64,000 nucleotides of DNA from Stygiolobus caldivivus (GCF_019704315.1 NZ_AP024597.1:2108001-2172000), one strand, 5' to 3'. Positions 1,542 through 15,541 are shown, counted from the first letter of the stretch. The notes: generated from the letters alone by a model not told the origin. Translations and numbers: made by a program.

Positions 1542-3479
1542 GTGGAGAAGTCACTCTTCGACATATTCTTTGAGAATTACACTTACGGTAACAACTACTT
1601 GGTCACCGCCCCCACGGGTACCGGGAAGACCCACATAGCCAAGCACTTACTCACTAATACTGATGAGGTCGTAGTCTACGCTTCCCCGTTAAAGGCACTC
1701 TCTAGGGAGGTGTACAAAGCGATAAAGGACAAGAGGAAGGCCAAATATGTTGACTCAGACGTCTATGAAGAAGACCTCTCCAACGTAGACGCTGAGGCCC
1801 TGCTTATGACTTACGAAAAGCTGGACTCTACCATAAGGCATAACTACAGGTGGCTGAGGAGGGTAAGCCTCATAATCGTAGACGAAGTCCATAACGTGGA
1901 GTCTGACAGGGGGCTGGCTATCGAGAACATAGTACTCTGGGCAAAGGCTAATAGTGTCCCTATCGTCGCCCTGAGTGCTACAGTACCCGACGTGGACAAG
2001 TACGCTAAGTGGCTATCAGCTACGCTATTGAAATACGATAAGAGGAGCGTACCCCTACACGAGTGTATAGCCTACCCCTACGTCATGAGGTGTTTCGACG
2101 ACAACAGGGTCTTCTCCCTCGGTAGGAGGGGGCTGAGAAACGTCAAGCTGGACCTCCTGCTGGGTATTTTAGACTGGGTCATTTCCATTAATAAGAACGC
2201 CCTCGTCTTCGTAAAGAGCAGGGCCTCAGCCGAGAGGCTCGCAGACACCCTCACCAAGTTCGATGTCCCGGCCCAGCCCTACCACTCAGGACTACCTTAT
2301 GAGACCAGGGAAAAAGTCCTCAACGACTACACAAACAATAAAGTGAAAGTACTCGTCTCGACTACCGCACTGGGCCAGGGCGTAAACTTACCCGTCTACG
2401 CTGCTATCTTCTACGACGTCTCTTTGCCGGAGAGTGACGAAAAGGGTGAGTTTAAGGGGTGGAGGGACTTAGACCCCTCAGAGTTTAAACAGATAGCGGG
2501 GAGGGCGGGCAGGAGGGGGTTTGACAACGAAGGGTATGCTATAGTCATAGCCGAGAGCGCTAGGGAAATGGAAAGGATAAGGCAGAAGTATTTCTCCAAG
2601 GAGGTAAACGGGGGCGTAGTCACTACCCCTTACACGCTGGAAAACTTAGCCTTAGGGGTGATCGCGTGGGGGGAGGGGATGGGCAAGGACGAAATCGATA
2701 AGGTGGTAAAGGGGAGCCTGAAGTTCCACGACCGTGACGTAAGCCCCGCTTTGTCGACTTTAGAGAAGGAGAACTTGGTAAGGGAAGAAGCGGGTAGCGT
2801 TTACCTCACCGAGCTAGGGAGGGCGGTGGCACTCAGCTACATAGACGTGGCGAGCCTTAAGGGGTTCCCGGTAAACGTAGACGACTTTGACCCCCTCTCT
2901 GTCATATCCTCTTCCCCTGAAGTGTTGCAAGCTTTAAGGGGGTGTAATGAAGGCAAGGAGCTCCTCAGGAGGTGGGCTAACGGCGAGGACATCCTGGACG
3001 TGTGTAAGAAGCTTACAGCTAAGGACATCGAGGAAGTCCTGTCTAACGCTAGGTGGATAGCGTTTGCCTTGTACAGAGTGTTAAAAGCCCTGCACAAGAA
3101 GACCGACGAAGTACGGGACCTCTATATGAGCCTGAAATACGGCGTACCCCCTGCGGGTATACCTTTAGCTGAGAAAAAGCTCCACCGCGGAGTAGTGATG
3201 AAGCTCTTGGCAATGGGCGTCAAGGGCCCGGAGGAGCTCTGTGTGGTCTCGGGCCTTAAGGAGGTGGAGAGGGTACTTACTACGATGGCCGTCGAGGAGT
3301 TGACCTACTGTACCCCTTACCTGCTGAGGTTAAGTGAGTTCGTAAGGGAGAACTACGGGAAGGAAATCGACAGGGTTGACAGTGTGGTAAAGCAGTTACT
3401 CCACATTGGTGTTTTATATAGGGAGGGTGATAAGATCAAGTGGAAGGAGTATAAGGTGATGACCTCGGGAAATACATGA
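1542..3479 (+). CDS. Ski2-type superfamily 2 DNA/RNA helicase (Hel308-like)
   Basis: ATP-dependent helicase of 645 residues. Motif I is TAPTGTGKT at residues 22-30, motif II is DEVH at 114-117, motif III is SAT at 145-147, and motif VI is QIAGRAGRRG at 327-336. The C-terminal third has the winged-helix and helical-bundle character of Hel308/Ski2 enzymes. The start is a GTG with an in-frame stop two codons upstream, so little room remains for a Q-motif before motif I. The protein may therefore be slightly shorter at its N-terminus than canonical Hel308, which is about 700 residues. Hel308 enzymes act at stalled replication forks; whether this divergent member does is inference. It stands alone, flanked by relic DNA. 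An alternative is a general Ski2-like helicase. Confidence 0.85.
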   Translation: MEKSLFDIFFENYTYGNNYLVTAPTGTGKTHIAKHLLTNTDEVVVYASPLKALSREVYKAIKDKRKAKYVDSDVYEEDLSNVDAEALLMTYEKLDSTIRHNYRWLRRVSLIIVDEVHNVESDRGLAIENIVLWAKANSVPIVALSATVPDVDKYAKWLSATLLKYDKRSVPLHECIAYPYVMRCFDDNRVFSLGRRGLRNVKLDLLLGILDWVISINKNALVFVKSRASAERLADTLTKFDVPAQPYHSGLPYETREKVLNDYTNNKVKVLVSTTALGQGVNLPVYAAIFYDVSLPESDEKGEFKGWRDLDPSEFKQIAGRAGRRGFDNEGYAIVIAESAREMERIRQKYFSKEVNGGVVTTPYTLENLALGVIAWGEGMGKDEIDKVVKGSLKFHDRDVSPALSTLEKENLVREEAGSVYLTELGRAVALSYIDVASLKGFPVNVDDFDPLSVISSSPEVLQALRGCNEGKELLRRWANGEDILDVCKKLTAKDIEEVLSNARWIAFALYRVLKALHKKTDEVRDLYMSLKYGVPPAGIPLAEKKLHRGVVMKLLAMGVKGPEELCVVSGLKEVERVLTTMAVEELTYCTPYLLRLSEFVRENYGKEIDRVDSVVKQLLHIGVLYREGDKIKWKEYKVMTSGNT

Positions 3480-4121
3480 CCGGTGATTAGGGTCTTGAGT
3501 GCTGAGCTATGAAGAGGGTTAAGAGGCTACATACGCTTCCGCCTATAGCGGGGCTGTGTTTGCAACCGTGGAAGTGTTCGTCCGTGTCTTGACTTACCCT
3601 TATTTCTACTTACTTTTAGCCCTGCTAAGTACACGCTATTGGGGCCGTACGCGGTCAACCCTTACGTAGTGTAATATTATGTGTTGTCTCTTATTGATTT
3701 ATAGATAGAATGAGTAAATAAATAAAGGAATGAAAAAAAAAATATCCCATATTTTCTAGTTTAAATTTTCAGATTTTAAAGATTTAACGTAAGATTAGGC
3801 TTTAGTGTTAAGGAGAGTGTTCAAGGTGACACTGAGATATCGTGATTTCTCAACAAACCCTGGCAGGTACACGACACGGGGTAATACTACATGAACATAA
3901 ACTGGTTACGATAATATCGAGAAGTAGTTAAAAATAGTTGCGTCATAAAAAAGCTACGGTCTGATATGGCTTAAAGGACGCTGTAAATGAGCTGACTTAT
4001 TTTTGACCGCAGTAGGGACATTTCAGTCCCCCCCTTACAACCCCTTTTAGGTACTCGTAAGGGCCTAGCATACGCCGTCGAGCTAGGCCGGGCAGTGCTC
4101 TATATAGGTGTACAGCATGAC
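3480..4121. other. gene-free stretch with short repeat copies
   Basis: No credible gene. At about 3911-3975 lies a copy of a short repeat with core ATATCGAGAAGTAGTTAAAA. Relatives lie at about 46312-46350 (same strand, degenerate) and 54840-54895 (opposite strand). An A-rich tract at 3721-3745 could serve as a transcription end for the helicase gene. Confidence 0.4.
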
Positions 4122-5300
4122 TCAGACGATGTGGGACGCTATGACCTCCACGCCCTCCTGTTTGAGCTTCCTCCAGACTTTTTTGTCCACGAAGTTGGCT
4201 ACCACGAAGACCTTTACTTCTTTGCCCTTGTACTTTGCGGAGAACAGCTTCTTCCTGATTATGACCTGGTCGTACGTCCCCTTATCTGCGAAGTTTTTGA
4301 TCTCGAACACGTAGACGTGGTCGTTTGTCTCATAGAAGTCCACCTCAAATTCCTTACCCTTATCTATTATGCCTTCGTCGTCCACCATAGTCCCGTGCAC
4401 GACCTTCTTAGGGTCTATACCGTGGAGTTCAAGGCTCTTCTTATAGAGGTGTAACATAGCTTTCTCTATACCTTTTCCTGCACGGTTAGTAAAGCCTCCT
4501 AGCTCTATACCGAGCCTATCGACCCTCCTAGTGAGCTTGATAACAGCCTTCTGGAGCCGTTCAATAGCCTCTCCTCGTTTCTGTATTGCCTCTTGTAGTG
4601 AGGCTATTGCTTCTCCTTGTCTTTTTACTTCTTGCTGTAGTGATATGATGGCTTCTGTGTGTTTGTTGACTGTTTCTGTCAGGCTTTTTATTGCTTCTCC
4701 TTGTCTTTTTACTTCTTGTTGTAGTGACGCTATTGCTTCTGTGTGTTTCTGTACTGTCTCTTGTAGTGCTTCTATTGCTTTGGTGTGTTTGTCTACTGTC
4801 TCTTGTAGTGAGGCTATTGCTTCTCCTTGTCTTTTTACTTCTTGTTGTAGTGACGCTATTGCTTCTGTGTGTTTCTGTACTGTCTCTTGTAGTGCTTCTA
4901 TTGCTTTGGTGTGTTTGTCTACTGTCTCTTGTAGTGAGGCTATTGCTTCTCCTTGTCTTTTTACTTCTTGTTGTAGTCCTTTGACTTCTTGTTGTAGTGA
5001 CGCTATTGCTTCTGTGTGTTTCTGTACTGTCTCGGTGAGTTTTTGTATCGCTTCCCCTTGCGTCTTTACCGTCTCTGTCAGTGCCTGTAATGTTTCCGTG
5101 TGTTTGTTTACCGTAGTCCCTAGTGACTCAATTGCTACAGTGTGTCTCTTCACCTCCTCTTGCAACGACTTGACACTCCCAGTGAGCTCTTCCAGCTTCT
5201 TTATCACCAGCTCGTCTTTAAGCTTCCCGTAGACCTTCTCGGCGAGTAATGAGAGTAACTGTGGGTTGTTAAGTATCTCATTTATGATGTCCTCTCCCAT
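4122..5300 (-). CDS. coiled-coil protein with C-terminal PD-(D/E)XK-like nuclease domain
   Basis: 392 residues. After a short helical N-terminus, residues about 35-265 form an almost pure coiled coil built from 14-residue units of the type KHTEAIASLQQEVK. The C-terminal part (about 280-392) carries FEVDF followed by VFEIKNFADKG, the spacing of a PD-(D/E)XK fold with candidate catalytic Asp and Glu-x-Lys. Similar coiled-coil/nuclease proteins, often annotated as domains of unknown function, are common and multi-copy in Sulfolobales. Nuclease activity is inferred, not known. The gene is single with its own A/T-rich promoter region at about 5325-5333. The 126-bp tandem repeat inside it suggests coil length changes by slippage or recombination. 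Confidence 0.75.
   Translation of the reverse strand: MGEDIINEILNNPQLLSLLAEKVYGKLKDELVIKKLEELTGSVKSLQEEVKRHTVAIESLGTTVNKHTETLQALTETVKTQGEAIQKLTETVQKHTEAIASLQQEVKGLQQEVKRQGEAIASLQETVDKHTKAIEALQETVQKHTEAIASLQQEVKRQGEAIASLQETVDKHTKAIEALQETVQKHTEAIASLQQEVKRQGEAIKSLTETVNKHTEAIISLQQEVKRQGEAIASLQEAIQKRGEAIERLQKAVIKLTRRVDRLGIELGGFTNRAGKGIEKAMLHLYKKSLELHGIDPKKVVHGTMVDDEGIIDKGKEFEVDFYETNDHVYVFEIKNFADKGTYDQVIIRKKLFSAKYKGKEVKVFVVANFVDKKVWRKLKQEGVEVIASHIV
4689..4977 (-). repeat. 126-bp exact tandem repeat inside the coiled-coil gene
   Basis: Bases 4689-4851 are identical to 4815-4977, giving about 2.3 copies of a 126-bp unit (42 codons, three 14-residue coil units). Outside this block the same 14-residue pattern continues with substitutions. 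One extra 7-residue piece (LQQEVKG) interrupts the register at about 4972-4992. Confidence 0.9.
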
Positions 5301-6066
5301 ATTTATTCAGATCAGTAGACTAAGTTAAAAATTAGACTGGATCGAAAGTACACGACCGGACAGCCTTAGCCCCCATTTAGGCTATTTTACTCCCCCCCCC
5401 CCCCCATCACGACCTAGTGCGGGGACAGCCACATTACGAACGGGTCAGTGGCCCTCCATACCTCGGATCTATGGGCTCATGTCCATACTACTTTTGCCCC
5501 CTTCCCCAATACATACACCAAGTGTTTTAAAAGGCCTAAAGCCCGCCCTTTACTTTTTGCCCTACTCCCAGTACGGGTTAGAGGAGGTCAAGTCCCCGTC
5601 GAGCTTTGAGCCCGGGTGAGTTAACGGCTCCTGCACCGGCCGTGTCTGTATTACCAGCTCGGCTAATACGTTTTATACCCGGCCAGTTTTTAAAGGGCGA
5701 CACCACGTTACCTTAAGGCCGGTATGTATACACGCCACAGGAGGGCGGGAGCTCCCCTTTAGCGTCCAACTAAGGATACGCTAACTGAGTATATGTAAGG
5801 GAGCTAGCTTTACCACTGACAGTGTCTTACGTAAGACCCCCCCGTCGGCGTGTCTTAAACTTTGTATGGCCATTACCTACTCCGCGGTCGGGAGCCGGGA
5901 CTCTGAGTGTTCAGCAAAAATTAAGTAAAGTACCCACGTTAATGTTTGGGGTAATACCCCAACCCAGCCGTCAATTCCTCTCCGATAAACCCTCCACGAA
6001 AAGCCATTTACCGTCAAAACGCCCCCACGGCAAAGAAGGCCCCTGTCGACGCGGGAAAAGCCCGGC
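5301..6066. other. gene-free stretch with C14 tract and repeat copies
   Basis: A run of 14 C lies at 5392-5405 (G14 on the minus strand). Directly beside it, 5406-5462 read on the minus strand is a decayed copy of the structured repeat best preserved at 54575-54736. At 5818-5905 is a copy of the second repeat family found at 7760-7945 and, inverted, at 11164-11345. An 87-codon open frame at 5822-6085 lies on this repeat and does not look coding. Confidence 0.5.
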
Positions 6067-6966
6067 TCACGACTGGAGGACGTAGGCTAACACCAAGGCT
6101 AAAACGCATATCGCTAATAGGAGGACGTCTAGCCACGTTAACCCTTCCCTGACCACGCTCGTCCTACCCCTCATAGCCCTGAAAGCCCTAGTGTCCAGCG
6201 ATATAGCCAGGCTCTTCGAGTTCCTGAGCAGGTAGACTATCGCGGGGAGGAACACCAGCAACATAGCATATATGTAATAGAAGGGCCTTAGGACCACGTT
6301 CTTCCTGTACCCCAACCCCCTCACTAACTGCAACTTAAAGGAGTCGTCCATCTGCCTCAGAGCTTGCGGTATCGCCTTGAGGAACACAGCTACGATAAGC
6401 GTGAGCTCCAGCGGCACCCTCAGCCTGCTGAAACTCCTCATTACCTCCGAAGTCGTCGTAGTACTTATGAAGATGAAGCCCAGCATGGTAATGTAGATGA
6501 CCTGGTCGTTAAGGCCGAACAACAGGCCGATCATTAAGTCCTGTAACGAGACCACAGGGTAATAGTGGAACACCTTCACTATGAAAGGGGGCCACACATA
6601 GAGGACTGGTGAGCCCTGCCCGGGGTAGTAGATGGTGTTCATCGTACTCCACGCCGTGACCACCACGTAGAAGCCGACGTACATCAACAGTGGCTTGACC
6701 TTGTCCCTGAGGGCTATAACGCCGAGGGCGAGGAAGGACAAGGGGAGGGCAAACCCCAACAAAGTGTCGGAATGAAACTTCAACCTTATAGTACTGTAAA
6801 CGATAAAGAAGGTAAGCAGGGCCAGCAGCTTCACTAATGGGTCTACTTTCAGCCGGGTCCCCCCGTACCGTGTGAGCTCCGCAAGCCCCCCGTAGCCGAG
6901 CTTCACAGCTAGCCACAGCACTGTTATGTATACTGCTATTAACAGCAAGACGGAGAAGTAAAACAT
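6067..6966 (-). CDS. ecfT: orphan ECF transporter transmembrane (T) component
   Basis: 299-residue membrane protein clearly paralogous to the T component at 27092-28081. Shared segments include the TTTTSEVMR region, the LQLVRGLGY coupling helix, and SLAISLDTRAFRA, the second signature helix contacting the ATPases. In that signature the usual Gly after Arg is Ala (DTRA instead of DTRG). ECF T components link a substrate-binding S protein to a pair of ABC ATPases for vitamin or metal import. No S or A gene adjoins it, so it would have to share ATPases encoded elsewhere, for example at 25555-27117, or be a relic. The reading frame is complete and looks functional. Confidence 0.85.
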   Translation of the reverse strand: MFYFSVLLLIAVYITVLWLAVKLGYGGLAELTRYGGTRLKVDPLVKLLALLTFFIVYSTIRLKFHSDTLLGFALPLSFLALGVIALRDKVKPLLMYVGFYVVVTAWSTMNTIYYPGQGSPVLYVWPPFIVKVFHYYPVVSLQDLMIGLLFGLNDQVIYITMLGFIFISTTTTSEVMRSFSRLRVPLELTLIVAVFLKAIPQALRQMDDSFKLQLVRGLGYRKNVVLRPFYYIYAMLLVFLPAIVYLLRNSKSLAISLDTRAFRAMRGRTSVVREGLTWLDVLLLAICVLALVLAYVLQS

Positions 6967-7759: not shown

Positions 7760-7945
7760 GGTCTTACGCAAATGGTCTTACGCAAAAAACCCTCGCCGCG
7801 GTATGTCTTTGCTGACCTTGCGTGCGCTATTACATACCCACGGTCGGTGTTTGGGCCCTTAGGTATTTAACGTAAAATTGACACGGGTAGTCACGTAGTG
7901 TACAAGTTAACTTCTACTGCTACGATTTTTCCGATAAATGTTATA
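7760..7945 (+). repeat. repeat family 2, copy facing plus
   Basis: Shares about 150 bp, with many substitutions, with the reverse complement of 11164-11345, for example ATGTCTTTGCTGACC, CGCTATTACATA and TCCTTAGGTATTT-like blocks. A shorter copy lies at 5818-5905. It ends near TTTTCCGATAAATG (7927-7940). No coding frame is evident. Confidence 0.55.
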
Positions 7946-8147
7946 CGTGGTAGTGCGGGGGGGGGGGGGGCTCATACAGTTCTCAGTTAAGGGGTGCTCT
8001 AATAGGCCTCTTTTTAAAGAGGGATATTTCTATTTAAACATTTAGTTATATATAAATTTAGGATAGATGTTTAAACCCACAACGTAAAAGTTATTAAACA
8101 TTGCCAAAAAAGGATAAGACGATATCACGTGAAAAATAAACAAAAAA

Positions 8148-8155
8148 TTTATATA
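8148..8155 (+). promoter_or_regulatory. TATA box of the first pilin gene
   Basis: TTTATATA lies 35-42 bases before the first possible start codon. It would place the transcript start near 8179 and give a leader of about 8-11 bases. Confidence 0.6.
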
Positions 8156-8189
8156 GATATTCATCCCCTATTAGTATGAGAAAAACATG

Positions 8190-8366
8190 ATGTCACTCAG
8201 AAAAGCCTTAAAGGCTAAAAGGAGCAAGAAAGGTCTAAGCGGTGCAGTAACTGCTCTAATCCTTGTGATCGCCAGCGTGATCATCGCCTTAGTCGTAGTA
8301 GGTTTCGCCTTCGGCTTATTCGGTGCTTTAGGCGGGACACCCACAGTCACACAAGTAGGGACTGGG
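8190..8366 (+). repeat. left arm of a 177-bp inverted repeat (pilin N-terminal coding region)
   Basis: Matches the reverse complement of 14872-15048 with about nine mismatches by my reading, including a first block of 45 identical bases. The two arms enclose roughly 6.5 kb. Confidence 0.85.
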
Positions 8367-8633
8367 TCACTAACTGGATCACCCAGTACTGGTTATACTG
8401 CCACTATAGTGTTACACTCGACCGGTACCGTACAGATTGAGTCAGCTAGCATAGTAGGGACTAACGTAAGTGCTACTGGTGCTACCTATACTCTGTCTGC
8501 TGGTCCAAACACTATAACATTGTCTTTCCCTAGCGGAAACGGGTTTACCCCACAACCCGGTAGCACATACCAGATAAGCTTAGGTTTAAGCGACGGTGCT
8601 ACTGTACAAGTAGCTGTAAGCTACACAGGTTAA
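8190..8633 (+). CDS. aapB: AapB-like archaeal adhesive type IV pilin
   Basis: 147 residues. A positively charged leader ends KKGLSG, a class III signal peptide cut by the prepilin peptidase PibD. An uninterrupted hydrophobic helix (AVTALILVIASVIIALVVVG) follows, then a Ser/Thr/Gly-rich beta domain. From memory this matches the AapB pilin of Sulfolobus acidocaldarius rather than archaellin. The second ATG (8190) is chosen because the paralogue at 14575-15048 starts exactly there; the ATG at 8187 is also possible. The first 58 or so codons are about 95 percent identical in DNA to the paralogue, then the middle diverges and the end is again similar. A secreted-protein gene follows 13 bases downstream. 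No pilus ATPase or membrane platform gene is in the window. Confidence 0.85.
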   Translation: MSLRKALKAKRSKKGLSGAVTALILVIASVIIALVVVGFAFGLFGALGGTPTVTQVGTGSLTGSPSTGYTATIVLHSTGTVQIESASIVGTNVSATGATYTLSAGPNTITLSFPSGNGFTPQPGSTYQISLGLSDGATVQVAVSYTG

Positions 8634-8646
8634 GCACACTAGGGGT

Positions 8647-9384
8647 TTGATAGGCACGAAGTTAGTATCTGTTTTTTTAATGTTCCCCCTCCTCTTCGTA
8701 GCGTTCCCTTTCTTACCTCATTTAGCTTATTCCCTCTCCCCGTCTTTTACTCCGGGTGACTTCCTACTATATAACCAGACTGTGACAAGTGTTTTCCCTA
8801 ACGGTACCGTTTACCACATCTACGAGTTCTACTTACAGCAGGTCGTCAAGGTTTTCCCTAACGGTTCCATGCTGGTGAACACGACGATCTATGACGAGAA
8901 CACTTCTTCTTACCTTCCCCCGGTAATGTCTATCGATAATGCTTCGCATCCCAAGGTCTTCATGTATATCAGCCCGAGCCTGTTAGGTAAAGTGGCGATT
9001 TACAGAGACGGTAGTGATCTGATATATAACGGTACGGAAGACGGGCTTTATGTGTACTATGATGCCTACGCGTTACAAGGAGTCAAGTTTATATACATTA
9101 TCTGGGTCAACAAGACCGGTGTCATATGTCGTTTTCAGACCCTACAGATAGGTGCAGGCGGGGGGTTAGTAGGTAATACTACTGCGGTACTGTGGTTATC
9201 TAACCTTTATAATAAGGGCGTAGTGATCCCAAAGTTCCTCTCTACTTATACTAAGGCTAATGTGGTCACTTATAGTGTATCTAACTTTTTAGTCTTGGCT
9301 CAAGAAAAGTTGCTCGAGGTCTACAAGTATATAATATTTATAGGCGTGTTTTTGATCGTGTTGATATTACTTTTTAGGAAATAG
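8647..9384 (+). CDS. secreted, membrane-anchored sequon-rich protein (paralogue of 11491-12183)
   Basis: 245 residues with an N-terminal signal sequence (about 1-30), an extracellular domain carrying many N-x-S/T sequons (NQT, NGT, NGS, NTT, NTS, NKT), and a C-terminal membrane helix with a short charged end (LILLFRK). It is clearly paralogous to the protein at 11491-12183: both contain VFPNGTV, a VNxTGV segment and LVGNTT. The start is a TTG preceded by a GGGG tract; a later Met (8680) is the alternative. It lies 13 bases after the pilin gene, so they are probably co-transcribed. I do not recognise a named family. A pilus-associated or surface glycoprotein role is inferred from context. Confidence 0.7.
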   Translation: MIGTKLVSVFLMFPLLFVAFPFLPHLAYSLSPSFTPGDFLLYNQTVTSVFPNGTVYHIYEFYLQQVVKVFPNGSMLVNTTIYDENTSSYLPPVMSIDNASHPKVFMYISPSLLGKVAIYRDGSDLIYNGTEDGLYVYYDAYALQGVKFIYIIWVNKTGVICRFQTLQIGAGGGLVGNTTAVLWLSNLYNKGVVIPKFLSTYTKANVVTYSVSNFLVLAQEKLLEVYKYIIFIGVFLIVLILLFRK

Positions 9385-10057
9385 ATGTGGAGTAATAGGT
9401 CGTAGCTATTAGGCTTAGCTTTATGAGGGCTATGGCTGGGAGGTACACTCCTTTAGGCACCTAAACTACAAAATAGTATCGACCGGTGCTATGACAAGTA
9501 TAAAGGATTAAACTTAGAGGCGGTCTTACTTTTAACTATACCGCCGTTTTACCTAAGACCTTATGTCGGCATATTTTTACCGGCTTGGACGTGTGACATT
9601 ATTCTACGATTAAAGGGCTCAGAACCCAAAAACTAGACATAAAATAAGGTATAGGGGTTATACGTAGCGTTTCATTGTATTGTTCAGCTGACGTGACTTT
9701 TAGATGAACACTATACCGGGTATATAGTCAAATGGTAAAACTTACTCGTCCCAGACGTGATTAGGACCTATACTAAATACCTTAACTTATTGGGACTACT
9801 ATAAGGGCTACAAGGATCAACTAAAGAGTTCCTGAAAGCCTCCATTTAAACCTTTATTAGCGGAACCCTAAGCTTACACCGCAACTTTTGTCGTGTCATA
9901 GAAGGGGGTTTGGCTCATAGTATATGTTATAATCGCAAAGGGGTCATGTATAAACCGCCTGAGTTTACCGATGTCGAGAAAGAGTTAAGTAGAGCGAATT
10001 ACGGATCAAGGTTTTATTGCAAAAACCGTAGCAATAGAAGTTAACCTGAATAGCACT
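9385..10057. other. gene-free stretch with a possible gene remnant
   Basis: No intact gene. One plus-strand frame from about 9459 to the TAG near 9637 reads as about 57 residues with a hydrophobic middle (LLLTIPPFYLRPYVGIFLP). It lacks a start codon and may be a decayed membrane-protein fragment. The rest shows nothing I can name. Confidence 0.35.
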
Positions 10058-11131
10058 TTACGGTTTTCTCTTCCTTCTGAACGTTTTTTTGATACCACCT
10101 GCTTCACGGTAGATAATTTTTATGAGCCTGGACAACCTCTTTGCTCCGAGGTCCAGACCCGTGGAGTACTTGAAGCACTGGACCGCGAGGAGGGAGAGGG
10201 CCTTCAGGGCCACGAAGCCCGTGTTCCTGACCCAGGTTAGGAAGGAACCCCTCTCCAACCCCAACGATTCGAGCTCCCTTATGAGGGCTTCAATGTCCCA
10301 ACGGTCCCCCCACGCCGTGGTGACGTCTTCTGGTGTGTCGTGTAGGTCGGTCGAGGAGGAGTACCCCCTCCCTTGACTTCTATAACCGCCTACTACCAAT
10401 AACTTGATGGGAGTGCCTAAGTACTCCACGAGGTACTCCCCTTGGGGGAACTCGCCAACGGGCACGGACCTGCCACCCTCGACGACCCGTGCGTTGGACT
10501 TGAGCTCCCCCACAATGTTCTCCAAAAGAGTCCTAGAGTCCACGTACCACGAGTCGAAGACTATAGCCTTCACGTTAAAGCCAGCGAGGGAGGGCAAAAA
10601 CTCCAGGAAGGCGTCGATCTTAGTCTTGAACTTCACCTCCTCACCCCTCCTCCTGAGCTCTTCCTCCACCTTTCTAGGTACGTAAGGGGTGGTGTTGACT
10701 ACAACTCGTTGTTGGTCAAGTCCTTGACCCCTATTACAAGGAGCTGGGTCGAGGGCTCGAACTTCTTGTGGGCCCTGCAGTAGAAGGCTTGTGTCCCGTC
10801 CCTTGAGACCGGCATAGCTCTGGCGTAGGGCTTGTGGTCGTGGGTGTCGTCCACTATGAGGAGGACAGGGTGGTCCCCCACCAAGTCCTTCACTACCTCG
10901 GTCAAGCTTGTACTAGCTGTCTAACCCCTTCAGCACGGTCTCGTAGTGCGTCCCCGCCTCTTGGGCTATCTCTGTGGCGTTCCCTCCCGTGACAGCTCCC
11001 AACACTAGCCTCCTTGCGACGTCCTTTCTTACCCCAGTGAAAGACTGGACTACCTCGTTGACTGCCTCCTCAAGTGCCTTGTAGTACTCCCCCCTTACCT
11101 TCCCCTTGGTCATACCAAAATTAATCGCCAT
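10058..11131 (-). pseudogene. DDE transposase of a Sulfolobus insertion sequence (ISC1217-like), frameshifted twice
   Basis: Three consecutive minus-strand pieces (10913-11131, 10699-10905, 10058-10669) join into one transposase of about 350 residues. The pieces carry a helical N-terminus ending HYETVLKGLD, then LLIVDDTHDHK (first catalytic Asp), then FDSWYVDS (second Asp) and WDIEALIRELESLG (catalytic Glu). Frame changes are needed near 10915-10920 and near 10690-10700. Length and motif set fit the IS4-superfamily elements called ISC1217 in Sulfolobus; that family name is from memory. The element is inactive as read. I could not find convincing terminal inverted repeats. It sits inside the pilin island. 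Confidence 0.8.
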
Positions 11132-11163
11132 AATTCTTAAAATGTTTTCACGGTTCGCTAACC

Positions 11164-11345
11164 TTGTCAGGATTTTCCGATAAAAGCTACCTGAACACTA
11201 CGAGACCGCTTACATCCGTTTTGCATCAAATACCTAAGGACTCAAACACTATCCGTGGCTATGTAATAGCGTACACCGGGTCAGCAAAGACATTCCGTAG
11301 CGAGGGTTTTGATAAAACGCTAACCTATGTGCGTGAAGAGCGGCT
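11164..11345 (-). repeat. repeat family 2, inverted copy
   Basis: The reverse complement aligns with 7760-7945. The end nearest the transposase carries TTTTCCGATAAA (11173-11184), the same motif as at the edge of the other copy and, inverted, at 849-864. It may be part of the insertion-sequence end. The 69-codon frame here is not supported as a gene. Confidence 0.5.
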
Positions 11346-11490
11346 GCTGTCTCGCCTCCACGTTAATCTGTGAAAAGGACGGTGGTCAGGACTAGCTACG
11401 GGAGACCTTAAAAACCTCCAAGCTCAGCCGACATAACGGCGAAGACGGTTTAGAGTAAAATTAAAAACCTAAACATCAACATTCTATATT

Positions 11491-12183
11491 ATGTTACCCC
11501 TCGTGCTATTTTCCGTATTGTTACTCCATAACGGTTCTTTGACCCACCCGGTCTTCGTGGAATACCAACAGATTATACACTTTTACACTGTCGGTGAGAC
11601 CGTCTACGGGCTAGTAATAGAGAACATATCTAGAGTATTCCCTAACGGAACTGTCTGCTTTGAGTACTATAACATAGACTTAAACGCCTCAGAGTATATA
11701 GGCCCCCTAATAGTCTATAATAACTTGTCACAGCCCACCTCTTTATACCTCTTTAACGGTGTGGGTAATAGTACGGTATACCGTGCTGGTGAGTTCACCC
11801 TCTCGGGAAAAGACGGTAACTATTATGTCTACAAAAACGTACAATACCAAGGAAGAGTACAAGTGGTGACTTACTACTATGTCAACCAGACCGGTGTACC
11901 GTATAAGATAGTCTTCCTCCAGTACGGTTCTAACGGCGAGTTGGTAGGGAACACGACTTACGTACTCATAGCTTCGAGCATTATCAACCCTAACGAGGGG
12001 CTGTACTTCCCCCTGGGCCTCACTAGAGTGAGCAACAACTTGAGTATAGGGAGGGTCTCTTATGCGTTCGGTTACCCGTTAATTGACGATGTCTTTACCT
12101 CGCTACTGGTTGTTTCTGTCCCCTTACTTTTCGCGTTTAAAGTATTCAAAAAGTACCGTAAGGAAGACGGCAAAGTTAAGTAA
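11491..12183 (+). CDS. secreted, membrane-anchored sequon-rich protein (paralogue of 8647-9384)
   Basis: 230 residues. It has a short hydrophobic N-terminus acting as signal or anchor, an extracellular domain with many N-x-S/T sequons (NGS, NIS, NGT, NAS, NLS, NST, NQT, NTT), a hydrophobic segment near 200-220 (VVSVPLLFAF) and a charged tail. It shares VFPNGTV, VNQTGV and LVGNTT with the protein at 8647-9384, so the two arose by duplication. An A/T-rich box lies about 25-30 bases upstream, consistent with leaderless expression. The last 60 bases overlap the end of the convergent membrane-protein gene. The function is unknown; the glycoprotein nature is inferred from sequon density. Confidence 0.7.
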   Translation: MLPLVLFSVLLLHNGSLTHPVFVEYQQIIHFYTVGETVYGLVIENISRVFPNGTVCFEYYNIDLNASEYIGPLIVYNNLSQPTSLYLFNGVGNSTVYRAGEFTLSGKDGNYYVYKNVQYQGRVQVVTYYYVNQTGVPYKIVFLQYGSNGELVGNTTYVLIASSIINPNEGLYFPLGLTRVSNNLSIGRVSYAFGYPLIDDVFTSLLVVSVPLLFAFKVFKKYRKEDGKVK

Positions 12184-14463
12184 TATTAAGGGGAGGAGGT
12201 CGGGGTTTTTAGGCTTTACTACCTTTCCCGCGACTATGTTATAGGAGATGCTTGGTACGGTGACGTTGGCGACGGGGAAATAGACCGCTTCTACGTCATG
12301 TGGTGGAGAAAGGTGTATATCCTGCTGTGCCAACTCATAAGGTATTGCTTCTATCCCTAGCAGGTAGTCGTCGCCAGACCCGCTACTGGACACCGTCAAC
12401 TTACCGTTAAGGTACACCTTAACCCCTAAGTCTACTACCCTCAGGGGCCCTACAGTAGAGAAAGCCTTAGTATACGTCCCGTTACTTACACTGATCACCC
12501 CACCTTGGGGGTATTGGACGTAAGACAATATGACGCAGTAATACCCTTTCCCCCAAGGTACCTCTACTGTTTCAGAAGCCGGAGGTGAGACTTGGATTAG
12601 TGGTGCACCGGGGAAGGTGTTAACGATAGACTGCGAATAAGGCGTGATCGTGATGGTACATGAGAAGCCCCCTAACCTCTGCACGGGTACCTCCACTGAG
12701 TAGTTGTTGTAGATGTCCCATAGTAAGTACTGTTTCCCACCGTTTATTACGCCCGCGAGGAATTTAGGGGGAACGTGGACGTAAGGTGGGACTACTGCAG
12801 TGTGGGGCGGAACCAGGGACAAGTTCTCTGGGTATGAGGCCAGGATATAGACACCGTGGGAGGTGAACTCTTCGCTGAACTGTGTGTTTTTGAACACGTA
12901 TATCCCGTTTGTGCAATACACCTCCTTAAACCCCCCTACGTGTCCGAAGAACTTAACGAGGTCTGGCTCGTTGGTCACTACGAACTGTACACCGTAAAAT
13001 GAGAGGACTGTACTTACGTTAGTCGTGTTGTAGAAAGGTAATAATGTTGCGCCCGGTAGCCCGGCGAATGGTTCTTCTGGGTATATTTTCCCGTCATACA
13101 CTATGGGCTGGACGTATAAGGCTACTTTCCCCTGGGCGTGTCCTTCGAGGTATGAGGCCACTTTGTAAAGGGGTGGGGCTACCGGGTAAGGTACATAGTT
13201 CCCTGAATAGTCACCGCCGTTAAATGAGGTAAAAGAGGAGGTGAGTTGCGCGGTGACTATGAACACTAAGAAGAGGACTGCCAAGAGTTGGGACTTTTTG
13301 TGGTGTGTGAATACATCGTCTATGAAGACCCCCATTACTGTACCTGCTAAGAGGAAGAGCGCCCCCGGTATGACCTCTTCGACGTATGTGGGCAGGAATA
13401 TCCACATGTAAGGGAAGGCTGGGGTGTTTATTAAGGCGTTATTGATAAAGTACACTAAGTTCATGGTAAAGGTCTTGCCGAAAAGGGTTATAGTAGAAGA
13501 CTCGACGACTACGACCCCCATGTAGACTAACAGTATAAAAGGTATTGAACTTTTCCTCAGCTTACCGAAGTAGTACGCTACACCGAGGACTACGAACGCG
13601 GGTAGTAACAAAGAGAACAAGTAAATGTACTGGTTAAAGTAGAAGGTGACCAAGGGCCTGAAGACGCCTACTCCCCTCAAGTTGTATAGGAACGGGTAAG
13701 TATAGTAGTTTAACCAGAGTTGCTGTACCTCGATGGACGTCCCCAGCCCGTTATATACGCTACCCTGCAGGAAGAGGCTAACGAAAGTCCTTATGTTCAG
13801 CCCGAAGTATATAGGTATAGCGAGGAGGAAGGTCTTGACGAACTTGTAGTCCCTCACCTTATAGAGGGCAAACGCTAAGGCCGTGAGTGCGGTGTAAGCA
13901 AACCCCCTGGGGTCTGTAGTGGTCAGTGAGGCGACCAGCGCGAGGAGTATAGCGCTTTTGTACCCCGGCTTGGTACTGGCATAGTCTAGTGTTGCTAAGA
14001 GTGACGGGTAGAGGGCTACAAAGGTTGAGTAGTCTAACCAGTAAGTGAAGTACATGAACGAGGGTGAGGCGACGAACATGAACGCAGTTACGGTGGATAC
14101 CACGTAGGTCGTGATGTTTACTTTACCCGTGAGCTTCCTGACGAAGTATTTTACCGAGAAGTAAATGGAGATGAATCCTAAAAAGACCGGGTAGGCGTAA
14201 CTTAGCTTGTCTACTATTTCTGAGGACAAGAAGTAGGAGGACAAGTAGACCGGCAGGTCAGGGTTGTCCATTATGAAGAGGAGGTTGATGACGCCGTCTG
14301 AGACTAACTGTGGTGGCGTACTTATGAGTTGCGGGTAGGAGTCCCTTACGTATATTAAGCCCGGTGATAAGATAGTCTTCCATAGTATTGAAAAAGTGCT
14401 CAGGGCTGCGAGGAGTACTACCGATAAGGCCTCGACATACGCCCTCTTTTTCATTGTTTCCAT
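12124..14463 (-). CDS. large multi-membrane protein with C-terminal extracellular domain (GT-C-like architecture)
   Basis: About 780 residues from the chosen start METMKKRAY. An A/T box (CTTAAATACTT region, about 14482-14495) lies the right distance upstream for a leaderless transcript, so the upstream in-frame extension to 14553 is probably not translated. Residues up to about 410 hold roughly ten to twelve hydrophobic helices. The rest is a soluble domain with several N-x-S/T sequons and a final helix (LILLNFAVFLTVLF). After the first helix comes VRDSYPQL, placed as acidic loop motifs are in GT-C glycosyltransferases. That assignment is only architectural. It lies downstream of the second pilin gene on the same strand, 111 bases away. 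A role in glycosylating or assembling surface proteins is conjecture. Confidence 0.75.
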   Translation of the reverse strand: METMKKRAYVEALSVVLLAALSTFSILWKTILSPGLIYVRDSYPQLISTPPQLVSDGVINLLFIMDNPDLPVYLSSYFLSSEIVDKLSYAYPVFLGFISIYFSVKYFVRKLTGKVNITTYVVSTVTAFMFVASPSFMYFTYWLDYSTFVALYPSLLATLDYASTKPGYKSAILLALVASLTTTDPRGFAYTALTALAFALYKVRDYKFVKTFLLAIPIYFGLNIRTFVSLFLQGSVYNGLGTSIEVQQLWLNYYTYPFLYNLRGVGVFRPLVTFYFNQYIYLFSLLLPAFVVLGVAYYFGKLRKSSIPFILLVYMGVVVVESSTITLFGKTFTMNLVYFINNALINTPAFPYMWIFLPTYVEEVIPGALFLLAGTVMGVFIDDVFTHHKKSQLLAVLFLVFIVTAQLTSSFTSFNGGDYSGNYVPYPVAPPLYKVASYLEGHAQGKVALYVQPIVYDGKIYPEEPFAGLPGATLLPFYNTTNVSTVLSFYGVQFVVTNEPDLVKFFGHVGGFKEVYCTNGIYVFKNTQFSEEFTSHGVYILASYPENLSLVPPHTAVVPPYVHVPPKFLAGVINGGKQYLLWDIYNNYSVEVPVQRLGGFSCTITITPYSQSIVNTFPGAPLIQVSPPASETVEVPWGKGYYCVILSYVQYPQGGVISVSNGTYTKAFSTVGPLRVVDLGVKVYLNGKLTVSSSGSGDDYLLGIEAIPYELAQQDIHLSPPHDVEAVYFPVANVTVPSISYNIVAGKVVKPKNPDLLPLILLNFAVFLTVLFEYFKREK

Positions 14464-14574
14464 ATATTTAATGGTGAGTATTAAGTATTTAAGGTTAAAA
14501 AAGTCAGCTGAATTATGGAGTAGAATAGAGAAAAAGGATCTCTGTTGTTGCACGACGTAAAGATACAGTTAAAA

Positions 14575-15048
14575 TTACAATACGGTGTAGCCCGTGTATT
14601 GTACCGCTACTTGAACTGTGGAACCATCGCTCAGCCCAACGCTTATCTGGTATGTGGTACCGGGCTGTGGGTTAAACCCGTTTCCGGTAGGGAATGTCAC
14701 GGTTATTGTGTTAGCACCAGCTGTCAGTGATGTGGAGCCCTCAACAACCCCGCTGTCAGATGTGCCTACTAGGGATACACTCTCTATTGAGACCGGGCCG
14801 CTAGTGTGTAGTGTGAAAGTAGCTTGGTAATACTGGAGTTGACCGTTAGTATTGGTCACGCCTTCCATGGACCCGCTCCCTACTTGTGTGACTGTAGGTG
14901 TGCCGCCTAAAGCACCGAATAGACCGAAGGCGAAACCTACTACGACTAGGGCGATGATCACGCTGGCGATCACGAGGATTAGAGCAGTTACTGCACCGCT
15001 TAAACCTTTCTTGCTCCTTTTAGCCTTTAAGGCTTTTCTGAGTGACAT
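14575..15048 (-). CDS. aapB: AapB-like archaeal adhesive type IV pilin, second copy
   Basis: 157 residues. The first 55 or so are identical to the pilin at 8190-8633: same class III leader KKGLSG, same hydrophobic helix, same GGTPTVTQVG start of the head domain. The middle of the head differs, and the end (PQPGTTYQISVGLSDG) is again close, with a four-residue extension (YTVL). A TATATATA box at 15073-15080 would start the transcript at about the start codon, so the message may be leaderless, unlike the first copy with its short leader. Having two pilins with a constant N-terminus and variable middle suggests alternative pilus subunits. The prepilin peptidase is not encoded here. Confidence 0.85.
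   Translation of the reverse strand: MSLRKALKAKRSKKGLSGAVTALILVIASVIIALVVVGFAFGLFGALGGTPTVTQVGSGSMEGVTNTNGQLQYYQATFTLHTSGPVSIESVSLVGTSDSGVVEGSTSLTAGANTITVTFPTGNGFNPQPGTTYQISVGLSDGSTVQVAVQYTGYTVL
14872..15048 (-). repeat. right arm of the 177-bp inverted repeat
   Basis: Mirror of 8190-8366; see that entry. The arm covers the start codon, the leader peptide and the assembly helix of the second pilin gene. Confidence 0.85.
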
Positions 15049-15541
15049 CGATCTTATTTAGGCTTTCTTGTCTATATATATTTTTCTATCCGCAGTTAAC
15101 GTTCTATCTTTATTCCTTATATTCTGTTAGATTTACCTTAGCTGCTCCTATTTAGTGGGTGGTTATAATGTGTAAGACCTAGAGGTGTTTAACATATTTC
15201 CTCGGCATGGTATAAGTTAACCTTTTCTGGGCCCTCGGGATCCAACGCAAGACTGTGTATATATACTAAAAAATAAGTATTTGGTGTAACAGTATGCGGT
15301 CACTGTTTTTCCAGTGAATGAAAGCTGGGGCCCTCCTGCCCTGCCACGTTTTTAGTAGGTCTCCAAAAGGTCTGGGCTTGTCACCCCGCGCTATTATTGT
15401 TCGTTTAAACGTTTGTGTATGGCCCGGCGTGGGTTTGTCTTTCTAGGACGTTCTATATTGACACTGTTTAACTTTTTAATGTCGTTTTTCAGTCTACTAC
15501 TATAATATAATTTTAAATTCGAGCACGCTAATTGTAAAATT
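15049..15541. other. gene-free stretch between divergent genes
   Basis: Carries the pilin promoter at its left edge. A 62-codon minus-strand frame (15394-15582) overlaps the start of the next gene and has no supporting features. I see no other element. Confidence 0.4.

Follow-up and report, generated by a model that had tools for sequence, protein, structure and literature searches.

Aap-type pilins are processed by PibD and assembled by the AapE ATPase and the AapF membrane protein. The Sulfolobales genomes examined by Rowland et al. each carry two pilA copies, on the same or on opposite strands, with the orientation varying within the order, and in 7 of 12 Sulfolobus islandicus strains the two copies are identical (PMC7217056). 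Either copy restores infection by Sulfolobus spindle-shaped virus (SSV) and S. islandicus rod-shaped virus (SIRV), with one SSV exception; the pili are needed for infection by both, and the S. islandicus pilins are under diversifying selection. In strain REY15A, the identical copies have identical promoters (SiRe_2654 and SiRe_2659), the genes for the pilus machinery of S. islandicus are located apart from the pilin genes, and the pili bear heavy O-glycosylation (Liu et al., PMC11178852). The passages of these two papers that were searched make no mention of gene conversion or inversion of the pilin pair, and searches of the literature for archaeal pilin inversion found nothing relevant. Here we analyse a pair of pilin genes, p2 on the left and p1 on the right, in a stretch of 64,000 nucleotides (nt) of the thermoacidophilic archaeon Stygiolobus caldivivus (NZ_AP024597.1:2108001-2172000; hereafter the window), which belongs to a single-contig genome of 2.96 Mb (G000). 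As with pilA1 and pilA2 of S. islandicus, two copies of the same family of adhesive pilins lie close together on opposite strands; the window genes, however, converge and enclose genes of the F1 and F2 families (Table 1), homogenisation is limited to their 57 N-terminal codons, and heads as well as promoters are different.

We consider it probable that this inverted adhesive pilin pair is under concerted evolution by homologous recombination, in a layout that makes crossovers into inversions.

Silent sites in the shared N-termini

The two open reading frames are intact and convergent. The inverted arms (8189-8368 and 14870-15049) are 180 nt long and 95% complementary, with a spacer of 6501 nt; such identity over this length cannot be chance, and the arm sequence is present at only two sites in the genome, both in this pair. 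A second, weaker inverted match (8493-8632 and 14588-14727, 79%) lies over the 3' part of the heads. The facing pair had been noticed in a first-pass annotation of the window, with arms of 177 bp at about 95% identity and an assignment as AapB-like. Our measurements agree. The closest solved structures to p2 are 8tib (E 7e-25), 8fjs, 6nav and 6w8x, and that of AapB (8q30) is farther off; the best Protein Data Bank matches are the adhesive pili of S. islandicus and Saccharolobus solfataricus. The p2 protein has a class III signal peptide (KKG/LSG) and p1 and p2 share the motif KKGLSGAVTALILVIASVIIALVVVGFAFG. The sequence traits of the Aap type, namely this kind of signal peptide, a hydrophobic assembly helix, an immunoglobulin-like head and a match to solved Sulfolobales pili, are all found, and on sequence grounds p1 and p2 are Sulfolobales adhesive (Aap) pilins.

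Homology between p1 and p2 begins at the start codon and ends near codon 57-60, and the DNA upstream of the two genes is without homology. The arms thus span the start codon, leader and assembly helix, as first described, and the heads do differ, with 64% identity at the DNA level. Within the first 57 codons (171 nt) there are seven differences, all of them synonymous, so that no amino acid is changed; the longest exact run is 45 nt.

We compared silent divergence (pS), and also counted codons for the same amino acid as same or different, using Fisher tests. Between p1 and p2, pS was 0.15 in the N-terminus and 0.61 in the heads (p = 3e-4). Against the pilin of the sister species G001, the sole other genome of the genus in the comparison, N-terminal pS was 0.74, which is saturation. 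Same-amino-acid codons in the N-terminus were 49 same and 7 different for p1/p2, as against 19 and 32 for p2 and its G001 counterpart (p = 7e-8). In a control inverted pair with near-identical N-terminal proteins, that of G027, pS was 0.80, with 19 codons same and 34 different (p = 2e-8 against the G000 pair), and the G016 pair, which is not homogenised, gave 0.73.

These values bear directly on the view that purifying selection alone accounts for the arms, as the conserved domain of two old paralogues. The N-terminal helix protein is strongly conserved across the family, as this view would have it. Nevertheless, the G027 pair demonstrates that a similar N-terminal protein can be kept with saturated silent sites, that is, without conservation of the DNA, and the silent sites that are near-identical in G000 are saturated when G000 is compared with G001, as they also are in the pairs of G027 and G016. 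On this sequence evidence purifying selection alone is insufficient to explain the arm identity, and we regard it as barely tenable; the first-pass annotation had kept it, beside old gene conversion, as a fallback, and the silent sites contradict purifying selection as the sole cause. Because silent sites are alike within G000, yet saturated against G001 and in G027, we conclude that the N-terminal half was homogenised by recombination after the split of G000 and G001. Copies within a genome are closer at silent sites than orthologues of different species are, in G000 for the N-terminal module only, and in G024, G028 and G015 for the whole gene. In the N-terminal tree the G000 copies are paired with support of 98/99, on tip branches of 0.035 and 0.0025.

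The sequences show that the signal peptide, assembly helix and linker, which make up the N-terminal module, were homogenised between the two copies after the split from the sister species, whereas the exposed heads either kept their differences or acquired new ones. We propose that the seven silent differences in G000 reflect gene conversion, or crossovers limited to the N-terminal 171 nt, the heads having diverged too far for recombination. Between inverted copies a crossover would, judging from relatives, invert the enclosed DNA rather than delete it. At any point of the first 171 nt it leaves both pilin proteins unchanged, and it would swap promoters between the p2 head with F1a and F1b on one side and the p1 head with the glycosyltransferase-like F2 on the other; on this consequence of a flip the first-pass annotation was right. 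The inverted layout may persist since direct repeats would be deleted, and the pair may provide diversity of heads and expression under pressure from pilus-using viruses.

Pilin pairs and inversions in relatives

The comparison set comprised 31 genomes of the family, among them genomes like those of S. acidocaldarius, S. tokodaii and Saccharolobus. Where Aap-type pilins lie close together, their orientation is inverted in G000, G001 (where one copy is decayed), G003, G006, G012, G013, G020, G021, G024, G027, G028 and G030, whereas G008, G016 and G029 have them in direct orientation; going by these sequences, inverted pilin pairs exist in most members of the family, frequently in homogenised form. 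Homogenised inverted pairs are those of G024 (100% over 514 nt), G028 (99.4% over 524 nt), G030 (97%), G021 (95%) and G013 (100% in the N-terminus), whereas there is no homogenisation in G027 or in the S. acidocaldarius-like G016. Between G024 and G028 the pilin copies differ by 18%, even though the copies inside either genome match each other completely or almost so and the DNA around them is about 90% alike in the two species. Homogenisation is not confined to inverted pairs, since the three direct pilins of G029 (L052:7890-11576) share near-identical N-terminal DNA, with heads saturated at silent sites.

The clearest case of inversion is in genus g4. The order in G013 is -F2 -p1 [+F1b -F1a -F5] +p2 +F14 +F15, and G004 and G023 are alike but without p2; in G020 it is -F2 -p1 [+F5 +F1a -F1b] +p2 +F14 +F15. 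The segment between the G020 pilins aligns to G013 in minus orientation (2627-6808 to 11484-7305, 86%), and to G004 at 94%, with collinear flanks. The 400 nt upstream of G020 p1 resemble the DNA upstream of G013 p2 (89%), the DNA downstream of G020 p1 resembles G013 p1 (81%), and the 118 nt upstream of G020 p2 resemble the DNA upstream of G013 p1 (91.5%). In sequence terms G020 against G013 and G004 is a reciprocal exchange, with breakpoints within pilin arms of about 500 nt. With arms that share only 79% identity, G020 is unlikely to owe its orientation to an assembly error. Over most of the region G004 and G020 are the closest pair, so the inversion is recent and belongs to the G020 branch.

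Two further cases come from g6. Between the pilins, the F9-F7-F3-F10-F0c block of G030 is inverted relative to G026, with F7, F3 and F0c common to both and the flanks collinear, and alignment indicates that this is probably a second inversion. In G028, gene F9 is inverted relative to G024, G021 and G015 and the flanks are collinear with G024, an arrangement consistent with an inversion at the pilin pair. Both cases are weaker than that of G020, because they lie among insertion sequences and have near-identical arms. A 360-nt match upstream of the F4-side pilin of G030 and the F2-side pilin of G015, considered as a promoter exchange, proved to belong to an insertion sequence, of which G015, G028 and G030 each have about 8-28 copies, and was discarded. 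Inverted segments that break at the pilins between collinear flanks were found in relatives only (G020 and G030, with G028 consistent).

Several observations weigh against concerted evolution with inversions. No inversion was detected within the genus: the stretch F5-p2-F1-F2-F34 runs the same way in G000 as in G001, with F5 on the left and F34 on the right. G001 is without an intact second pilin and has one intact Aap-type pilin at the locus, with minus-strand remnants around the F5 helicase gene (L034:7949-8404, with an in-frame TAG, and 10917-11003, a C-terminal fragment). For G000, gene conversion and crossover are indistinguishable. Insertion sequences crowd the DNA that borders the arms in g6, and the G028 inversion could have used one of them; the G030 and G028 arms are 97-99% identical over 411-524 nt, so that an assembly error in orientation is possible there. 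Lastly, the head tree also pairs the G000 copies (support 99/95, tips 0.20 and 0.39), which leaves room for a duplication after the split with faster divergence of the heads.

This last point, together with the absence of an intact pilin beside F2 in G001, would suit a scenario in which an inverted duplication took place fairly recently in this lineage, with heads that diverged fast by positive selection and no later exchange. We think it unlikely. Positive selection on amino acids does not yield the contrast in silent divergence between heads and N-termini, and any contribution of duplication would still require faster silent change in the heads; the p1-F2 unit is common to g4, so that p1 is likely ancestral at its place; and the flanking DNA of the two copies is dissimilar, unlike that of a recent duplicate.

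The pair might alternatively be an active phase switch, with frequent inversion, both orientations in one culture, and differing combinations of heads and partners expressed. The geometry suits such a switch, as the proteins survive a crossover in the arms while promoters and partners are swapped; pairs of the same type are inverted in relatives, and in Moraxella inversion is a known route to pilin phase variation (PMC4073114 and references therein). The sister species nevertheless has the same orientation, and each window gene has a promoter of its own, leaving no silent copy waiting. Neither did the search for an enzyme favour it. The G000 genome gave no match to PF01548, the Piv/IS110-type invertase family, which control genomes did match, and no recombinase was found near the pair, the nearest tyrosine recombinase domain being about 50 kb off and the serine recombinases far away. 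IS110 copies (family F18) do occur in the inter-pilin segments of G028 and G030; with none in G000, we treated them as ordinary insertion sequences rather than as a Piv-like invertase. An active switch is accordingly a poor candidate in our estimation. Without Piv/IS110 or a nearby recombinase, inversion, if any, most likely occurs by ordinary homologous recombination, and slow RadA-type recombination rather than a programmed switch is the most likely process. The invertible cassette of the first-pass annotation survives in part: the arms are the work of recombination and pairs have inverted in relatives, but no flip is evident in the window, whose orientation is that of G001.

A bolder extension is that the inverted pilin pairs of the Sulfolobaceae are a recombinase-free device for surface variation, in which N-terminal recombination keeps flipping the segment, re-pairs heads and glycosylation or lipid-binding partners with promoters, and alters virus access, with the window as a live example. 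We hold this to be unlikely.

A scan of the collection for additional species yielded Candidatus Aramenus only. Between two of its genomes (G014, pilin 7257, and G005, pilin 14453; L038 and L039), synonymous divergence (dS) of the typical pilin is 1.05, as against about 0.13-0.47 for all neighbours, which suggests import of a foreign allele.

Promoters and enclosed genes

The features of the pair and of the segment it encloses are collected in Table 1.

Table 1. Coordinates of the pilin genes, their arms and promoter regions, and the genes between them, in window positions.
Feature	Position	Strand	Remarks
p2 promoter region	8130..8189	+	TATA-like box TTTATATAG, kept in the sister species G001 (upstream alignment)
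p2, Aap-type adhesive type IV pilin	8187..8633	+	148 amino acids (aa); 147 aa if translation starts at the second ATG (8190)
Left arm	8190..8368	+	Covers the start codon and leader peptide, the assembly helix and the first residues of the head; 95% to 14870-15048
F1a, downstream of p2	8647..9384	+	Secreted, membrane-anchored; LolA/LmcA-like beta fold (weak fold match)
ISC1217-type transposase (DDE_Tnp_2), broken	10058..11131	-	Between p2-F1a and F1b
F1b, F1a paralogue	11491..12183	+	3' end overlaps F2 tail to tail
F2, membrane protein	12124..~14463	-	~780 aa; directly downstream of p1
p1, pilin	14575..15048	-	157 aa; first 57 aa are those of p2; head differs
Right arm	14870..15048	-	From sequence comparison; one of two copies in the genome
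p1 promoter region	15049..15108	-	TATA-like box ATATATATAG; region unrelated to that of p2

In p2, about 30 nt separate the end of the TATA-like box from the first ATG (8187), and 33 nt separate it from that at 8190; the box of p1 ends 23 nt before its ATG. The annotated contrast between a short-leader transcript for p2 and a leaderless one for p1 is therefore plausible, as a prediction from spacing.

The families enclosed by the pair recur beside pilins elsewhere: F1 in 16 and F2 in 14 of the 21 family regions compared for gene neighbourhoods. F1 is predicted to be a secreted, membrane-anchored, beta-rich protein weakly like the lipid-binding folds of LmcA and LolA; the F1a model has a predicted local distance difference test (pLDDT) score of 87.8, and its Foldseek match to LmcA has E 2e-5 and a template modelling (TM) score of about 0.42. 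F2 is a membrane protein of many helices that also has a beta domain on the extracytoplasmic side; the best Foldseek matches of its moderate-confidence model (pLDDT 69.7) are to AftD (E 7e-10) and to archaeal AglB (E 1e-5), with TM only 0.3-0.4. These matches suggest a glycosyltransferase C (GT-C) or oligosaccharyltransferase-like fold, and we infer from the model that F2 is a candidate pilin glycosyltransferase.

About 250 nt upstream of p2, some 150 nt (7786-7938) match in inverted orientation both ends of an ISC1217-type element (10013-11310) at about 83-86%, as would an internally deleted remnant like a miniature inverted-repeat transposable element. Farther left, on the minus strand (4122-5300), lies a gene for a 392-aa protein with near-perfect tandem coiled-coil repeats (e.g. 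VKRQGEAIASLQETVDKHTKAIEALQETVQKHTEAIASLQQE), whose number is likely to be variable; a relative adjoins the pilin/F2 locus in G023.

Elsewhere in the genome, L056:4988-5884 (G000:C1 ~1180987-1181883) encodes a 298-aa membrane-anchored protein with two tandem pilin-head-like domains and no pilin N-terminus. Its second head-like domain has 74% protein identity to the head of p2, and it is possibly a tip or surface protein sharing the head fold (PF06157, DUF973, C-terminal domain). We considered it as a second recombination donor and rejected it, its DNA matches being in short pieces only, which indicates no recent conversion.

Comparison with known systems

In Moraxella, one pilin gene is expressed at a time. 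The likeness to the tfpQ/tfpI system of M. bovis and M. lacunata is that pilin genes are inverted and recombination there changes the pilin body behind a promoter (cited in PMC4073114). That system is site-specific and needs Piv, an IS110-like DEDD recombinase, whereas the genome of the window lacks Piv and its repeats are ordinary homology; moreover, both window genes are complete and each has its own TATA-like box, as read from the DNA, in place of one promoter and a silent copy. The window pair is not a Moraxella-type (Piv) system, although the outcome resembles it.

The aap locus of S. acidocaldarius, with aapA and aapB around aapX-E-F, likewise has two homologous pilins per locus. They lie on the same strand (6486+ and 12826+ in G016) and are not homogenised, unlike those of the window. 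AapB alone forms the pilus in that species (PMC11178815).

The pair is thus closest in kind to concerted evolution of inverted paralogues in general, in which the copies within a genome are closer to each other than to their orthologues. It differs in that homogenisation stops at a domain border, so that the heads stay variable, and in that real inversions are found in relatives. We class it as concerted evolution of an inverted pair of surface-protein genes, accompanied by occasional inversions. A layout in which a crossover becomes an inversion, with a constant assembly module and a variable head, would account for the persistence of two copies, for their frequent identity, and for the differences between species in orientation and neighbours.

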